From: an uncultured Bacteroidia bacterium
GTDB lineage: Bacteria; Bacteroidota; Bacteroidia; Bacteroidales; F082
Direction: 5' to 3'
Length of the DNA: 55,690 nt
NCBI GenBank assembly: GCA_902801625.1
Contig: CADCJI010000020.1
Span: 1-55,690 of the forward strand
The stretch's first letter is position 1. Each line of letters starts with the position of its first letter. Of this stretch, positions 8,336 to 16,588 are shown in pieces. The position numbers and the translations under genes are program-made. The notes below the pieces were generated by a model. That model made no database searches. It was not told the DNA's origin and was given only the letters and a program-made list of their open reading frames with translations.

Positions 8336-10159
8336 ATTGCTAGCATTTATCTTGTATCTTTGAAACAACTCTAACACATAATCAGCCAAAGCTGAACAAG
8401 TTGTGAATTGCTTGTATTTATCTTGTATCTTTGCTCTTTGAAACAACAAAAAACCGTGATAAATCCTATCAAAATGTTGTGAATTGCTTGCATTTATCTA
8501 GTATCTTTGCTCTTTGAAACAACCGCCGTTTCGGTCGTACTTGTAGAGGAACAGTTGTGAATTGCTTGCATTTATCTTGTATCTTTGCTCTTTGAAACAA
8601 CACACGGAGAAATCACCGCCGAAGAGATGGGTTGTGAATTGCTTGCATTTATCTTGTATCTTTGCTCTTTGAAACAACTCATCCCGTTATACGAGCGTAG
8701 AGGGCTCAGTTGTGAATTGCTTGCATTTATCTTGTATCTTTGCTCTTTGAAACAACGAATCAAAACTTTGAGTAAAACCAAACGAAGTTGTGAATTGCTT
8801 GCATTTATCTTGTATCTTTGCTCTTTGAAACAACTGGTACGGTTTATTTAGGTTCGATTCCTAGTTGTGAATTGCTTGCATTTATCTTGTATCTTTGCTC
8901 TTTGAAACAACCATCGCTGGAATTAACTACACCGCGCCACAGTTGTGAATTGCTTGCATTTATCTTGTATCTTTGCTCTTTGAAACAACTGAGGCTACTC
9001 CAACAAGAATTGAAAAAACGTTGTGAATTGCTTGCATTTATCTTGTATCTTTGCTCTTTGAAACAACAACTGGAATAATACTATAAACAACCATAAAGTT
9101 GTGAATTGCTTGCATTTATCTTGTATCTTTGCTCTTTGAAACAACCTATAATTAGAAGCAACGGTATCAACAATAGTTGTGAATTGCTTGCATTTATCTT
9201 GTATCTTTGCTCTTTGAAACAACAAAATTAGAACGACAATCTTTATAACTGACGTTGTGAATTGCTTGCATTTATCTTGTATCTTTGCTCTTTGAAACAA
9301 CTTTGTCTTGCAACTTACCTAGATTAGCTTCGTTGTGAATTGCTTGCATTTATCTTGTATCTTTGCTCTTTGAAACAACAAAACCACCAGTGGTAATATG
9401 AGTAGAACTTGTTGTGAATTGCTTGCATTTATCTTGTATCTTTGCTCTTTGAAACAACAAAGGACCAACACTGGCAGAACTAGGAACACGTTGTGAATTG
9501 CTTGCATTTATCTTGTATCTTTGCTCTTTGAAACAACCACATACTTACAAGTCCATAAACGCGACGCGTTGTGAATTGCTTGCATTTATCTTGTATCTTT
9601 GCTCTTTGAAACAACAACAAGGAAAATCATCGGTCTTGTCTAGAAGTTGTGAATTGCTTGCATTTATCTTGTATCTTTGCTCTTTGAAACAACGCACTGA
9701 CTATCACCTAACCATGTCATGGAGTTGTGAATTGCTTGCATTTATCTTGTATCTTTGCTCTTTGAAACAACGTTAGTGCAATAAATGTAATTAATAATAT
9801 GTTGTGAATTGCTTGCATTTATCTTGTATCTTTGCTCTTTGAAACAACACCACGGAGATGAATGTCATACCTTATATCGTTGTGAATTGCTTGCATTTAT
9901 CTTGTATCTTTGCTCTTTGAAACAACATCCTCGCGGACGACCCTATCGGCGTGCCGTTGTGAATTGCTTGCATTTATCTTGTATCTTTGCTCTTTGAAAC
10001 AACGTGGTCGTGCATTGGGAATAACCAATACCAGTTGTGAATTGCTTGCATTTATCTTGTATCTTTGCTCTTTGAAACAACATGCTGAAAGAGAGTAGCT
10101 TACCGCAATGCGTTGTGAATTGCTTGCATTTATCTTGTATCTTTGCTCTTTGAAACAAC
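8331..10159 (+). CRISPR. Type II-C CRISPR array, 24 repeats and 23 spacers
   Basis: The repeat is 48 bases, starting GTTGTGAATTGCTTGCATTT and ending TATCTTTGCTCTTTGAAACAAC in short form GAAACAAC. Full repeats begin at 8400, 8476, 8554, 8631, 8709, 8787, 8864, 8942, 9020, 9098, 9176, 9254, 9332, 9411, 9490, 9568, 9646, 9724, 9801, 9879, 9956, 10034 and 10112. A degenerate repeat (8331-8369) lacks 7 bases. Spacers are 28-31 bases, mostly 30, and all differ. The repeats at 8400 and 8476 each carry one substitution; I see none from 8554 on. The left end is therefore the old end and the cas2-side end the young one. Pairing with the tracrRNA shows crRNAs are read on the plus strand as spacer then repeat. 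Each repeat carries a TATCTTTG promoter box at its positions 27-34. Confidence 0.98.
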
Positions 10160-10186
10160 AACAATTTAGATGTTGTTTCAGAAAAG

Positions 10187-10241: not shown

Positions 10242-11480
<1,239 letters not shown>

Positions 11481-11488
<8 letters not shown>

Positions 11489-12314
11489 CTGACTCTAATT
11501 CCAAAGTGTTTTGTGTTGGCAAATAGTTATTGGGGGTTGAAACACTGCGACCAAGCTCTTTTTCCGTTTCCTTTCTTGCCACGCCTGCCACATTTCCGCC
11601 TCGTTTTGCGATCTTTCGGCTCTCCTCAAAAGTCTCAGGATCTTCTTTTTGGGAGATTTCCGTTGTGACGCGTTCGCCAAGCATGGTGAAAATCAGTTCT
11701 AGGTCATCCATGTGGTCGCGGAGGTTCTGGTTCTTCTTGGTCAAGCCTTTGAACTCCTTATATTCAGAGGGTGTCATGCCAAAGGTGGCCTTGGAAATCT
11801 CTGCGGTAAGAATGGCATAATCCTGTTCCAAGGTAATGCCTCTTCTTTTCCATTCATCGGTCAGATTCTGGCGGATGGCCATACCACGAAGGCGTTTGTC
11901 GATCCAATCTTTTGGATAGCCTTTTTTTTCGTAGAGTTCCTTCATGCGCTCCTGTGCCAGTTCCGGGTTTTCGATTTCGAGCATACGCTCGTAACCCACC
12001 GTTGCCAACCATTGCTTGAAAGGTTCTGCCTTTGGCGATGGAATGGATTGAATGATTCGGAGTAAGCCTTTGATATTGGCGCAATCGGTATTATACTTCT
12101 TGCCATCCGTACTAGTCAATTTCAGTTGTACCCAAAATGGGTACGACTGATATTCCTTCAGGTCTCGGTCTTTCATTTTCCGCCAATATTGCCGAGGGTT
12201 TGGTGAATCAGTTAATGCCTCCACCACATCCACAACGGAGAAATACCATTGTTCCTCTTCTTCGTTCCATGCGGAACGGATTTTCTTGTCTTGGAAAAGT
12301 TTGATGTTGGTCAT
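11481..12314 (-). CDS. Bro-N domain protein (DinD/antirepressor-like) inside the cas operon
   Basis: A 277-residue protein of the Bro-N class found widely in Bacteroidota and phages. The N-terminal Bro domain is clear: WYFSVVDVVEALTDSPNPR around residues 23-41, then RIIQSIPSPKAEPFKQWLA and YERMLEIENPELAQERM. A helical C-terminal half follows with EYAILTAEI-like and ISKATFGMTPSEYKEFKG segments. Bro-N proteins include phage antirepressors and relatives of DNA-damage protein DinD; the biochemical role is not settled. It lies 14 bases after the cas9 stop (an in-frame TTG at 12332 would even overlap it) and overlaps cas1 by 8 bases, so it is expressed as part of the cas operon. The canonical II-C operon is cas9-cas1-cas2, so this gene is an addition. 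The domain call is secure; a role in CRISPR immunity is inference from position only. Confidence 0.85.
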
Positions 12315-12328
12315 AGCTAAGTATTTAT

Positions 12329-15300
12329 TCAATATTCTCCGATAGATACAATTTGGCCAATATGATTAATGCGAACTTTTACAATTCCACGAAGCCCTTC
12401 TGCATTTCTAACCCTTTTCCATGTAATATCCCTAAAAAGAGCATTTTCGTCCACAATTGTTTCAAGATGATGTCTAAAATAATAGTCTTTTGTCGCCATT
12501 TTCTGAACCCTATACAAATTAGGACTAATTAAAGCATAATTCTCGTGATTTTTATACCAAACCTCATCATAATCCAAAGGATTGAAAACCATATTGCCTT
12601 GCTCGTCATAACGAGGAAACACAAAATACTCATTTTGCTTCATGGTAAACATGAATTGCCAGCCCTCCTCTTTCTTGTATTCTTTGTCGACAATTGGAAA
12701 ACCTTGTATGGCTCGCGACGTGGCTTCATAGAACGACACGATTACTTCATCCAATTCAAATTGTGGCTCACCATTGCCGTCCAACAATTGCTGTCCATTC
12801 TTATCCAATTTAGGCTTATGGTAAATTGCCACATGATGGTTATTGCCCGTATTCACAAAGTCAACCGGTTGTGTTCTTCCATTTTCATCCAAAATCAATT
12901 GACCATCCTTATCTCGTTTGTCGTGAAGCGATTCAGCGTTGCTAATGCCTGTAATGGTCACTCGCTTAATGGCGATGCCTTTTTCTCTATTGAGCCAAAT
13001 GGGATTGTCGTCCAGGTTGGAGAATGCTTTCTTAGCATCGCCTCCAAAAGCACCCAAACGTTCCTGAAGAATTTGGCGGATATGAGCATCGACCACTTTT
13101 TCAATCTTCAAATCAGGTGTTATGTCCTTACGAATAGTATAAATAGTTTCAAAAGTCACAATCTTCACCTTTTCGGGGACTTGAATCGTATGCGAATCAT
13201 CCAACCAGATTGGATTCTTCTCCAATGAATTTTTCCCTGTAAAGGCCTTCTTGGCATCGCCGCCAAACTGCTGCAAACGGGCAAGAAGCGCTTCACGATA
13301 CCGCTTGTTAGCGATAGTATTGATTTTTTCAACATCAAAAGAAGCATTCACCTTTTCTTCTTTGGTGACATATCTTTTGCTGCTTCCAAATACTGTTTCC
13401 AAATGCAACTGCCCTCGAGGTGTAAGTTGAACCTTCTTGTATCTTCCGTTCTTGGTTTTGGACACATTTACGTTTTGTGTCACCACCTTGTTTTTCGCTT
13501 TAATTGATACCAAGATAGCTTCTAGTTGACGTTTCGCCTCAGCCCTAAACTCAGTCAAAGGCATTGGAGCATTAAACCGAAGCTTCCCATGACTATCACG
13601 ATGCAATTCTTTTCTTTCAATGGCATACACTGCTGCTGAACGCTGGTCATTGTCCAGCAAAGAGAGTTCAACCATATCCAAATCAATATAATCATCTACA
13701 CCTTTTTGAACCCTAGCATTAAGATTGTTCAAATATTGTATGAAACTACGCTTTGTAAAGGCAATTGTCAAGGCGTCCATGGCATGATGGCGATGGTCAT
13801 TACGCTTAGTCCAATCCTTGATTCGGCGAATACGCTGTCCGTCACGACCTTCAATGATTTCTGTAAGTCCTAATTGGTTGTACTTGTCCCAATTGAGTTC
13901 CTGCATGACATCAACCAACTGCCAATCCTCACGCAAGCGATCAGTAATACTGCCAGTTGTTGGCACAACAAAACGCACTATCTCCTCCAATATCTCGCGG
14001 GCTTTCTTGGCAATATATTGTGAATCGCGCAAGTCACGATTGATGAAGCCACTCGGAATATCGGCCTCTTTCATCAAGAGTTTGTCATGTTTTGTCTTAC
14101 TGATAACCTTTTTGTTATATAGGTTTTCGATTCTGGTCACATACTCCTCAGAGACTTGTGCTCCATATTTTTCATTCACAAAATCCATTGCCGTGGCATT
14201 GCCTTTGTCGAGATTGACCTGACGCACTTCTAGCGTCTTGTTTGAGAACGAATCATCAAACAACTTGGCTTGCGGGATAATATGCTCAATGTCAAATTCC
14301 TTGCTAAACAACTTCTCACGAGGAATGTAAGTGTTGGAATACAACGTCTTATATCCATTCATTTCAAGTTCCTCATAGAGTTTATATCTTATGATGTCAT
14401 TGCGGCTCACGTGCTCCAAGTTGAAAGGTTCTCCTTGCAAAACCTTTACATATCCTTCATTCAGCCTAGTTGTTTCATTGATTGATCTAGTCATTTCTTC
14501 GCGTTCCTTGGCCGACTTTTTCAATTCACGAGCCAATTCGATACGTATTTCATCAGGTTTCCCGTATTCATCAATGATGGCATTCACCACATTAACCATC
14601 TGGTTCAGAATCTTCTCCACTACTGGGTTTCGCAGGCTATTACGAGGCAATAGTTCCAATTTGTCTTTCAACACCTTATTTTCAATCTCCTCTTTAGTGA
14701 GTGAATTCTTCGAATGTCGATAACCAGCATATTCACAGGCTACACTATATTCAATTCCATCTTTCAAATGGGGAAGAATCTTTCGGATGGCTTTACTACT
14801 TAAGCTGCCATAATCATCTGGGAAAACCACTCCCGCCAAAATGGTTGCAGAATCTTTGTCAAAGCCAAACTGGTCATGCAATTTTTGGATGAGGTTTGCA
14901 TTACCCAACTCCGACTTGTCGCCCTCAAACGAGTACAACAGATGCCATAATTTGAACATAGGTTGCAGTTCTATGGCATGGCCTTCAAGACTTGAATCAA
15001 AATACAATATTCCTGTATTGATTCCCAATCCAGCAAACACTTCACCAATCTTCTCAATGGTTTTCGCCGTTGACATTTTTGAAAAATCAAGCCCATCATG
15101 ACCGCTCATTTCGATGATTGTTTTATAGGCCGCCATCAACTCTGCTTGCGTCTGATTGCCTTCCAGATCTTTATAATTAAGGTCGTATTCCTTTTGACTA
15201 CCAAATAATAACTTCAAAGCTTCAGCCTTTGATAGTTTCTCGCAGTAATTAAGTTCAGCAAATAGCATTTCCTTCTCTTCTTGGAACAAGAAACGCTTTG

Positions 15301-16588
15301 GCATTTTTTTGCCCCACACTTGAACGTTATTCAAGACCTGCCAAATCTTGAATTCTTGGAACAAAGGAGAAGATTTAGGACACACACGCAAACCTATCGT
15401 CTTTGTCTTCTTTTTGCCATCAATCTCAACTTCAATTTGACGACTTTCAAACTCACAAAACGAAATCAATCCTTTTTGTGACTTCAGTGGCCTCTGATAA
15501 AAAATGACGATATCACGTATTTCTTTTTTCAGTTCCGGGGTCAATTCTTTATGAAATTTCGCTTGTGTCTCCCAAATAGTCTCAAACTCATTAAGATAAT
15601 CTTGCCTATAGAACACTTGGTTCTTCAAACTAAAATTTGGATTCTTCTCCAACTGAGCCATTTGATATTGACCAACAGTTTGATGATTGAAATACAAAGC
15701 TTTACTTCTATCGCTAATGTCACCAAGATAACCGCTGGCATTACTGATTTGACCATTAACCTCCTGAAGTACAACCATCAATTCTTCCAAACCCAGTTGT
15801 TGCGTAAGCGCATCAACCCGCAATTGGTAGTTTTCTATCTTCAAATCTTGACCTTTTGTAGAGCGTTTCACTCCTTCAATTTTGAACAATCCCGCACAAA
15901 TAGACCAAGTCTGTTTCTTATTCTTCCCGATCAATTCATCAAACAATTGGTCAGAGAGCAATTCAGGATAATATTTATTTTGACTAACCCAAATTCTTTC
16001 AAACTCAGCTTGAAGGTCTGAACGATAGAATTCAGGCAAATAGCGTTTACCAATTTTTAGCAATTGCAAAGAAAGTTGTCCTGGCGTTAGGTTCTCTTCA
16101 TACAACTTTTTGGCTATCTCCATCCCATCGATTAGTTGCCCTTCTTCTGTAGACTTGGCTTTGCGGCTGCTTTTGTAACCTCTTTTCTTATTTATCATCA
16201 ATAAAACACGGGCGAATTCTTCCATAGAAATCTCTTTGGTAGCAGCTTTAGCCCTCAAACGATAGGTTTCAAAAGTAGTTTTGTTTCCATTTTCCGACAG
16301 CACAGTCTCATCATCGATGAAACCATTTTCTTTCAAAACCTCTATCAAATTCTCACGACGCAATTTGTACCTTTGTAGATTGCGGCGCATACTACGTTTG
16401 AGCGTGCGAGTTGCATTAGTTGTGATAGGTTTTCCTTTTTCAAAATTGGTTTGCTCATCTACTGTCAAAGGATTAACCCTAACTCCCAATTTGATGATTG
16501 ATGATTTTTCAGCTTCACTTTCAGCCTCATTCACCACCGCCCAGCCGATGCTGTTGGTTCCTAAGTCAAGTCCTAATATTTTCTTCAT
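12329..16588 (-). CDS. cas9: CRISPR-associated endonuclease Cas9, type II-C
   Basis: A 1419-residue dual-RNA-guided DNA endonuclease. RuvC-I: ILGLDLGTNSIGWAV with Asp8. Arg-rich bridge helix: RTLKRSMRRNLQRYKLRREN, near residues 60-80. RuvC-II: IRIELARE with Glu684. HNH: DIEHIIP with His769, then FSNKTL and LDKGNATA, matching the conserved Asn positions. RuvC-III: DHRHHAMDAL with Asp938. All catalytic residues are present, so the protein should be active. The C-terminal region contains an internal duplication (about residues 1098-1130 and 1171-1201) sharing FGGDAKKAF and NPIWL. The size matches other Bacteroidota Cas9 proteins. The gene is more AT-rich than the flanking core genes. A TAATTTTG box lies 43-50 bases upstream of the ATG (16638-16631, minus strand) without a good -33 box. 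Confidence 0.97.
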   Translation of the reverse strand: MKKILGLDLGTNSIGWAVVNEAESEAEKSSIIKLGVRVNPLTVDEQTNFEKGKPITTNATRTLKRSMRRNLQRYKLRRENLIEVLKENGFIDDETVLSENGNKTTFETYRLRAKAATKEISMEEFARVLLMINKKRGYKSSRKAKSTEEGQLIDGMEIAKKLYEENLTPGQLSLQLLKIGKRYLPEFYRSDLQAEFERIWVSQNKYYPELLSDQLFDELIGKNKKQTWSICAGLFKIEGVKRSTKGQDLKIENYQLRVDALTQQLGLEELMVVLQEVNGQISNASGYLGDISDRSKALYFNHQTVGQYQMAQLEKNPNFSLKNQVFYRQDYLNEFETIWETQAKFHKELTPELKKEIRDIVIFYQRPLKSQKGLISFCEFESRQIEVEIDGKKKTKTIGLRVCPKSSPLFQEFKIWQVLNNVQVWGKKMPKRFLFQEEKEMLFAELNYCEKLSKAEALKLLFGSQKEYDLNYKDLEGNQTQAELMAAYKTIIEMSGHDGLDFSKMSTAKTIEKIGEVFAGLGINTGILYFDSSLEGHAIELQPMFKLWHLLYSFEGDKSELGNANLIQKLHDQFGFDKDSATILAGVVFPDDYGSLSSKAIRKILPHLKDGIEYSVACEYAGYRHSKNSLTKEEIENKVLKDKLELLPRNSLRNPVVEKILNQMVNVVNAIIDEYGKPDEIRIELARELKKSAKEREEMTRSINETTRLNEGYVKVLQGEPFNLEHVSRNDIIRYKLYEELEMNGYKTLYSNTYIPREKLFSKEFDIEHIIPQAKLFDDSFSNKTLEVRQVNLDKGNATAMDFVNEKYGAQVSEEYVTRIENLYNKKVISKTKHDKLLMKEADIPSGFINRDLRDSQYIAKKAREILEEIVRFVVPTTGSITDRLREDWQLVDVMQELNWDKYNQLGLTEIIEGRDGQRIRRIKDWTKRNDHRHHAMDALTIAFTKRSFIQYLNNLNARVQKGVDDYIDLDMVELSLLDNDQRSAAVYAIERKELHRDSHGKLRFNAPMPLTEFRAEAKRQLEAILVSIKAKNKVVTQNVNVSKTKNGRYKKVQLTPRGQLHLETVFGSSKRYVTKEEKVNASFDVEKINTIANKRYREALLARLQQFGGDAKKAFTGKNSLEKNPIWLDDSHTIQVPEKVKIVTFETIYTIRKDITPDLKIEKVVDAHIRQILQERLGAFGGDAKKAFSNLDDNPIWLNREKGIAIKRVTITGISNAESLHDKRDKDGQLILDENGRTQPVDFVNTGNNHHVAIYHKPKLDKNGQQLLDGNGEPQFELDEVIVSFYEATSRAIQGFPIVDKEYKKEEGWQFMFTMKQNEYFVFPRYDEQGNMVFNPLDYDEVWYKNHENYALISPNLYRVQKMATKDYYFRHHLETIVDENALFRDITWKRVRNAEGLRGIVKVRINHIGQIVSIGEY

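Follow-up and report, generated by a model that had tools for sequence, protein, structure and literature searches.

A Bro-N gene of cas and restriction operons carries a covarying palindrome in its recognition-domain codons and may control its own operon

Phage antirepressors commonly contain Bro-N domains. Controller (C) proteins of restriction-modification systems are small, single-domain helix-turn-helix (HTH) proteins with boxes upstream of their own gene, the origin of phage lambda lies with its iterons inside the gene of the O protein, which starts replication, and dinD of Escherichia coli is under LexA control. Here we analyse a Bro-N gene located between cas9 and cas1 in a type II-C operon of clustered regularly interspaced short palindromic repeats (CRISPR) of an uncultured Bacteroidia bacterium (Bacteroidales, F082), on a stretch of 55,690 nucleotides (contig CADCJI010000020.1) that we refer to as the window. 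For most of 40 II-C strains of B. fragilis, RhuM-domain open reading frames (ORFs), belonging to another family, were reported in 2017 between cas1 and cas9 and beside restriction genes, with a figure legend that puts the two extra genes between cas2 and cas1; the presence of RhuM between cas9 and cas1 in B. fragilis is thus already known (PMC5704556). The passages of that paper dealing with this slot mention no Bro-N gene there and no palindrome. No report of a Bro-N gene in CRISPR operons, or of an in-gene palindrome in Bro-N or RhuM, was found in the open-licence literature, which has most subscription journals outside it.

Comparison of the sequences leads us to propose, at close to an even chance, that the window protein is a two-domain DNA-binding protein acting as a self-contained controller of its mobile defence operon by means of a palindrome in its own gene. 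It would share with C proteins the self-regulation of a mobile defence operon, C proteins differing in their small HTH and upstream boxes, and with lambda O a binding site within the binder's own gene, lambda O differing in its iterons and its role in starting replication. With 277 aa, two domains, an in-gene site and a single genomic copy of that site, it does not answer to the description of a C protein.

The palindrome in the recognition-domain codons

The Bro-N gene (11481-12314, minus strand; ATG start), a member of the PADLOC PDC-S13/phrog_15286 family, contains at 12123-12149 a palindrome that reads CAGTCGTACCCATTTTGGGTACAACTG on the gene strand and is centred in codon 60. In the family, the palindrome around the residue-60 codons has arms of about 11 bp and a total length of 23-27 bp. 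The best palindrome of the whole coding sequence was centred at window-reference residue 60 in 98 of 101 family genes, a set that leaves out L003-L012 (already present as named loci), L116 (frame disrupted) and the second copies L072b and L120b. A second set comprised 43 genes from 15 genomes, of which one was too short and L274 and L277 (identical to L022 and L020) were dropped; in 37 of the 40 retained the best palindrome fell at residues 58-62, and of the three exceptions two (L255, L269) have it at codon 60 of their own gene.

Pairing greatly exceeds what the protein sequence imposes. The genes have 10.51 of 12 positions paired, as against 6.93 after synonymous resampling with the protein held fixed; all 101 genes exceeded their own null mean, 99 of them at p ≤ 0.05. 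Across 64 unique sites pairing reached 87.5%, compared with 57% (maximum 60.5%) when partners were shuffled and 24-33% when the site was slid. The arms covary, with three or four of the Watson-Crick pair types represented at offsets 4-7 and 9-11, and the palindrome differs between lineages yet remains palindromic. Of 616 other genes at these loci, 13 showed pairing at 12-13 of 13 positions, versus 43 of the 101 family genes; those 13 include Bro-N copies or fragments (L072, L120) and a RhuM gene (L110, at the RhuM site), the remainder being two palindromes at gene ends and others scattered.

The structure model shows two domains, a winged helix and a conserved helical C-terminal part (codons 88-265; 11520-12053, minus strand), and its helix 40-51 and strands 61-67 and 73-79 flank or contain the palindrome codons. 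The best match among solved structures is DdrC of Deinococcus radiodurans over nearly the whole length, and the model has the two-domain fold of DdrC; a profile search of Protein Data Bank (PDB) sequences returned one unrelated match (E 0.17) and did not find DdrC.

Recognition helix and wing (codons 36-86; 12057-12209, minus strand), delimited by swap comparisons and the structure model, form a swappable cassette. This winged-helix segment is swapped as a cassette between otherwise near-identical proteins, as six pairs are 98-100% identical at residues 88-265 but 19-38% identical at residues 45-86. Palindrome similarity tracks the adjacent cassette residues (rho 0.59), compared with rho -0.02 for the C-terminal part and 0.04 for residues 1-33. 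Because site and recognition domain share a stretch of about 150 bp, specificity could move between genes in one cassette. The palindrome is the most variable part, which makes site-specific recombination at a conserved core unlikely.

An in-gene palindrome of this kind was also found in most RhuM genes tested and in E. coli dinD. In RhuM (PF13310), separate from Bro-N by sequence and with the same predicted order of helices and strands, the best palindrome lies at one equivalent codon in 25 of 31 genes, at the start of the strand corresponding to the wing (RhuM model, pLDDT 77); covariation in RhuM was computed from genes with their best palindrome at the site and is therefore biased upward. 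The first match of the RhuM model is also DdrC, though weak (E 1.8e-3). One genome, G034, carries RhuM between cas9 and cas1, the same slot as Bro-N. At this II-C locus (L242, contig C23) cas9 and cas1 are separated by a RhuM gene, a RhuM remnant and a transposase-like ORF of 153 aa, and cas1 and cas2 by an ORF of 124 aa.

E. coli K-12 dinD carries TGACCATTTCGAGGAGATCCTCGATATGGTCA at codon 63, with 14 of 15 positions paired. Among 4668 E. coli genomes with a dinD match, 1421 have it at ≥99% identity, 511 at 95-99%, 2732 at 80-90% and four lower; three fetched alleles of the 80-90% band differ from K-12 mainly at residues 10-83. These alleles (L246, L247, L248), set against L210:3761-4585, combine a near-K-12 C-terminal part with a replaced N-terminal domain. 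DinD thus resembles Bro-N in its in-gene palindrome and in alleles varying mainly in the N-terminal domain; it differs in its yicC-yicG context, and the window protein scores 19 bits against the DinD equivalog NF008573 (cut-off 242), far below membership. The DinD and DNA-damage kinship put forward in the initial annotation is supported by the fold, with DdrC as best match, and by the palindrome shared with E. coli dinD, and fails at the level of the equivalog.

The two site classes tested are nearly restricted to Bro-N genes and what is left of them. Its own genome (84% complete) has a single copy of the window palindrome, on which ground a repeat element was rejected. In 98 genomes of the genus, 12 places match it with ≤3 mismatches, namely five Bro-N genes (one truncated), one decayed Bro-N, five cas9-cas1 junctions lacking Bro-N and one unrelated ORF; the reversed-pattern control over the same genomes gave two matches. 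A second palindrome class (≤2 mismatches) matches six places: all four exact ones are in Bro-N genes, one is in a Bro-N remnant and one is unexplained. Exact matches to two patterns were absent from the viral contigs (the window variant, one base off the first pattern, was not itself searched), and we consider a phage-borne target rejected on this result.

Occurrence, selection and loss of the Bro-N gene

A scan of genome_contigs found 322 relatives, the best 80 of which were analysed, a set biased to close kin. Forty-eight of these 80 lie in CRISPR operons, L100 being a doubtful further case (no Cas12a profile match in its genome), and these 48-49 operons reject chance insertion. Type II loci account for 39 of the 80, with the gene mostly between cas9 and cas1 by tblastn and profiles; seven of the 39 were recognised by cas1 and cas2, the effector being off the contig or of another class. 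A further eight are in loci with Cas12a (type V-A, behind cas12a) and one is in type I-C; 31 more, some lying close to a contig end, showed no cas gene. Profiles confirmed Cas12a at L081, L094, L106, L109 and L114 and in the genomes of L097, L113 and L115. The gene order by profiles at L081 is cas12a, Bro-N, cas4, cas1, and tblastn with the L081 genes also located cas4 and cas1 at L097, L106, L109, L113 and L115. At the 49 cas loci the gap between the upstream gene and Bro-N has a median of 9 bp (44 measurable, 40 at ≤60 bp), and that between Bro-N and type II cas1 a median of 3 bp (38 measurable, 35 at ≤60 bp, 11 overlapping), which bears out the tight operon coupling first noted at the window.

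Non-CRISPR relatives have as restriction neighbours HsdS and HsdM (L124), HsdS (L130), HsdR-like proteins (L129, L132) and MmeI (L108); further neighbours are RhuM (L127), a helicase (L125) and ordinary genes, for example for a glycosidase (L117). A tandem Bro-N pair with the first copy cut short was observed at L120:8820-10819, and one genome, G103, holds seven copies of the family (L251-L257).

The Bro-N gene is optional, common in its own genus and rare in the order. Among 173 genomes of its own family, type II cas1 is present in 47, of which 31 belong to the genus, and Bro-N at ≥82% identity in 11, window genome counted. In nine of these 11 it stands directly before cas1. In G084 (locus L082) it heads a type I-C operon, and in G122 (L079), where it lies outside CRISPR, one neighbour is a divergent signal peptidase gene; G113 retains a truncated copy. 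Bro-N at the head of the type I-C operon (L082:8937-18224) has a divergent WYL-domain gene on its other side. A draw of 393 Bacteroidales genomes contained 141 with cas1 and 30 with Bro-N at E ≤ 1e-95 (36 matches); contexts in this draw, which take in few of the 31 Bro-N matches at 57-71% identity, show Bro-N beside cas1 in G000, G067 and G388, and behind cas9 in G444 and behind cas12a in G330, with no cas1 following in either. In 195 genomes from the family of the Treponema genome of L115, 23 have Cas12a; Bro-N at ≥74% identity is found in four, in all of them by cas12a at 31 to 494 bp, and the next best Bro-N is 54-55% identical.

It had also been suggested that the gene might serve adaptation. 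A role in adaptation alone is unlikely, because the gene stays behind cas9 or cas12a without a following cas1 (L071, L094) and heads a whole type I-C operon (L082).

Between the window and L062, L063, L073 and L078, Bro-N is 84-94% and Cas1 91-96% identical, while their Cas9 is only about 34-35% identical to that of the window (12329-16588), identities of Cas9 being those of the best-matching tblastn stretch; so different a Cas9 before a near-constant Bro-N-cas1-cas2 block indicates that the effector has been exchanged. L066 and L074 share with the window 87-90% of Bro-N, 73-78% of Cas9 and only 58-60% of Cas1. The Bro-N gene is under strong purifying selection: its ratio of nonsynonymous to synonymous substitution (dN/dS) against the window is 0.03-0.06 in seven of nine unsaturated pairs and 0.08 and 0.11 in the other two, and that of cas1 is 0.03-0.04 in its five pairs. 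The Treponema pair L106/L113 has a Bro-N dN/dS of 0.25, consistent with cassette replacement there. In the tree of the conserved C-terminal part the CRISPR loci are strongly clustered (seven changes versus 28 shuffled), and a 43-row group with 38 CRISPR rows has support 96/95. Coupling to one Cas9 lineage was not seen: Cas9 classes are intermixed across the Bro-N tree, where class IICa takes 12 changes, compared with a mean of 13.3 on shuffling, and 77 of 500 shuffles gave as low a number.

Sixteen of the 22 own-genus cas1 loci that lack a full Bro-N were retrieved, and 13 junctions were read base by base. At L193, with Cas9 94% and Cas1 96% identical to the window, the first Bro-N codons persist and are followed by a stop; L204 lacks the middle of the gene but has both its ends, and L208 holds a decayed Bro-N. 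At L189, L190, L191, L194 and L195 the sole remainder is a piece of 28-29 bp matching the palindrome of a Bro-N gene, with 27 of 29 bases in the best cases, equalled in none of 200 shuffles. Of these isolated palindromes, that of L194 looks as if flipped relative to that of L189: it differs from the reverse complement of the latter at 1 of 23 positions, versus 4 in direct orientation. No Bro-N trace was present at six of the 13 junctions (L192, L196, L197, L198, L200, L201). A chance insertion, as considered in the initial annotation, would have its closest Cas9 relatives without the gene and prophage genes as its nearest relatives; the outcome is split, as L193 does lack the gene but carries the decayed start of one, and the nearest relatives are not prophage genes.

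Proposed control of the operon and rival explanations

In the proposed mechanism the Bro-N protein, probably a dimer, would bind its own gene at the palindrome, where the codons of recognition helix and wing meet. Binding would block or slow transcription of Bro-N and the genes behind it and so establish negative feedback; the genes controlled would be cas1-cas2 in type II, cas4-cas1-cas2 in type V-A, the whole cas operon in type I-C and restriction genes elsewhere. The conserved C-terminal part might sense a partner or a DNA break and thereby cause release. Since the site is nearly confined to these genes, lies within the recognition-domain codons and is co-inherited with them, binding to its own gene would be the simplest reading; the sign of regulation, the signal and the reason for cassette diversification we infer rather than observe. 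In a broader form, which we regard as possible but somewhat short of an even chance, Bro-N/PDC-S13, RhuM and DinD would constitute a superfamily of controllers with the operator in the recognition-domain codons, supplying orthogonal, swappable pairs to CRISPR types I, II and V and to restriction systems.

Several observations weigh against self-control through the palindrome. DdrC is reported to bind DNA without sequence or shape specificity (PMC5436757), whereas the window Bro-N is proposed to bind one palindrome. Physical linkage alone would also yield the correlation between palindrome and cassette, one of the 12 window-class and one of the six second-class matches are unexplained or due to chance, and five junctions retain the palindrome though the Bro-N gene is gone. 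Equal palindromes are not clearly avoided within a genome: near-identical ones (at most 2 of 25 differences) make up 1 of 63 pairs within genomes versus 57 of 1113 between genomes, and L255 and L256 of G103 share an identical 25-mer with proteins just 48% identical. Avoidance of cross-regulation would require differing palindromes within one genome, and such avoidance is therefore not supported. In E. coli the second dinD allele has a weaker palindrome at the same place (10 of 13), and dinD stands between yicC and yicG with no defence gene after it, so that control of downstream genes is not the universal purpose of the palindrome.

The main rival is a break-handling role of the DdrC type, which we judge unlikely and which may coexist with self-control. 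A DdrC/DinD-type factor would hold or shield DNA ends left by Cas9, Cas12a, Cas3 or restriction enzymes and alter repair or the supply of prespacers, the palindrome being secondary, for example a nucleation site. Such a role leaves unexplained a covarying, class-specific palindrome at a fixed codon and the swapping of the recognition half. Rather improbable in our view is a selfish passenger that spreads by inserting itself into mobile defence operons with good expression and uses the palindrome to regulate itself alone. A full gene beside cas1 in nine of the 31 genus genomes with cas1, its decay at L193, L204 and L208, many unrelated hosts, and a history differing from that of cas1 at L066 and L074 are what a passenger would produce, but not the low dN/dS of Bro-N, nor the same slot across many type II and V-A operons, which is not expected from random insertion.

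We attach little probability to the palindrome being an mRNA hairpin, acting in translation control or transcript stability, instead of a DNA site. An inverted repeat can also fold as RNA, the position is always transcribed, and among coding-strand mismatches G-T slightly outnumbers A-C (25 to 18). So small a bias speaks for a DNA site; moreover, the window copy includes a coding-strand C.A mismatch, and the palindrome axis leaves in most genes a one-base centre, too small for an RNA loop. Least credible, to the point of being very improbable, is the anti-CRISPR or captured phage switch entertained in the initial annotation. Apart from the frequency of Bro-N in phage antirepressors, the window protein has weak PHROG antirepressor matches. 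Phage relatives are few, however, with one close relative in IMG/VR (a scan that reaches close relatives only) and four unannotated phage records at 46-55% identity versus 322 relatives in genome_contigs; close relatives sit in cas operons, and phage capture is not supported. Nothing was found in favour of an anti-CRISPR, the dN/dS is low, and the gene is conserved inside the operon that it would inhibit.

If self-control holds, a role is found for the common, unexplained Bro-N, RhuM and DinD genes of defence operons, as a control layer common to CRISPR types I-C, II-C and V-A and to restriction systems, with a bearing on the restraint of cas gene expression. It would also put self-encoded regulator-operator pairs on offer, and the dinD palindrome of E. 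coli K-12 makes the idea directly testable.

The window operon

The window operon matches the definition of type II-C, with cas9, cas1, cas2 and an array, and no extra cas gene between cas2 and the array. All its genes are on the minus strand: cas9 (12329-16588, 1419 aa; Pfam/NCBIfam), Bro-N, type II cas1 (10574-11488; TIGR03639, Pfam/NCBIfam) and cas2 (10242-10577; Pfam CRISPR_Cas2, TIGR01573), whose start was taken as the first Met of MMDRF. The CRISPR array (8394-10167, no strand assigned) has 23 repeat copies at a spacing of about 78 bp. Exactly as first annotated, a 14-base gap (12315-12328) separates the cas9 stop from the Bro-N start, and the Bro-N stop overlaps the cas1 start by eight bases (11481-11488).

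Pfam Bro-N (PF02498) matches the window protein with 45.9 bits (gathering cut-off 25.6), limited to residues 11-104. Nearly full-length matches were obtained with phrog_15286 (E 7e-99), a family of unknown function, and with PDC-S13 (PDLC04920; residues 2-270, E 8e-121, from a profile that shows no curated cut-off), which PADLOC-DB lists as a candidate defence family only.
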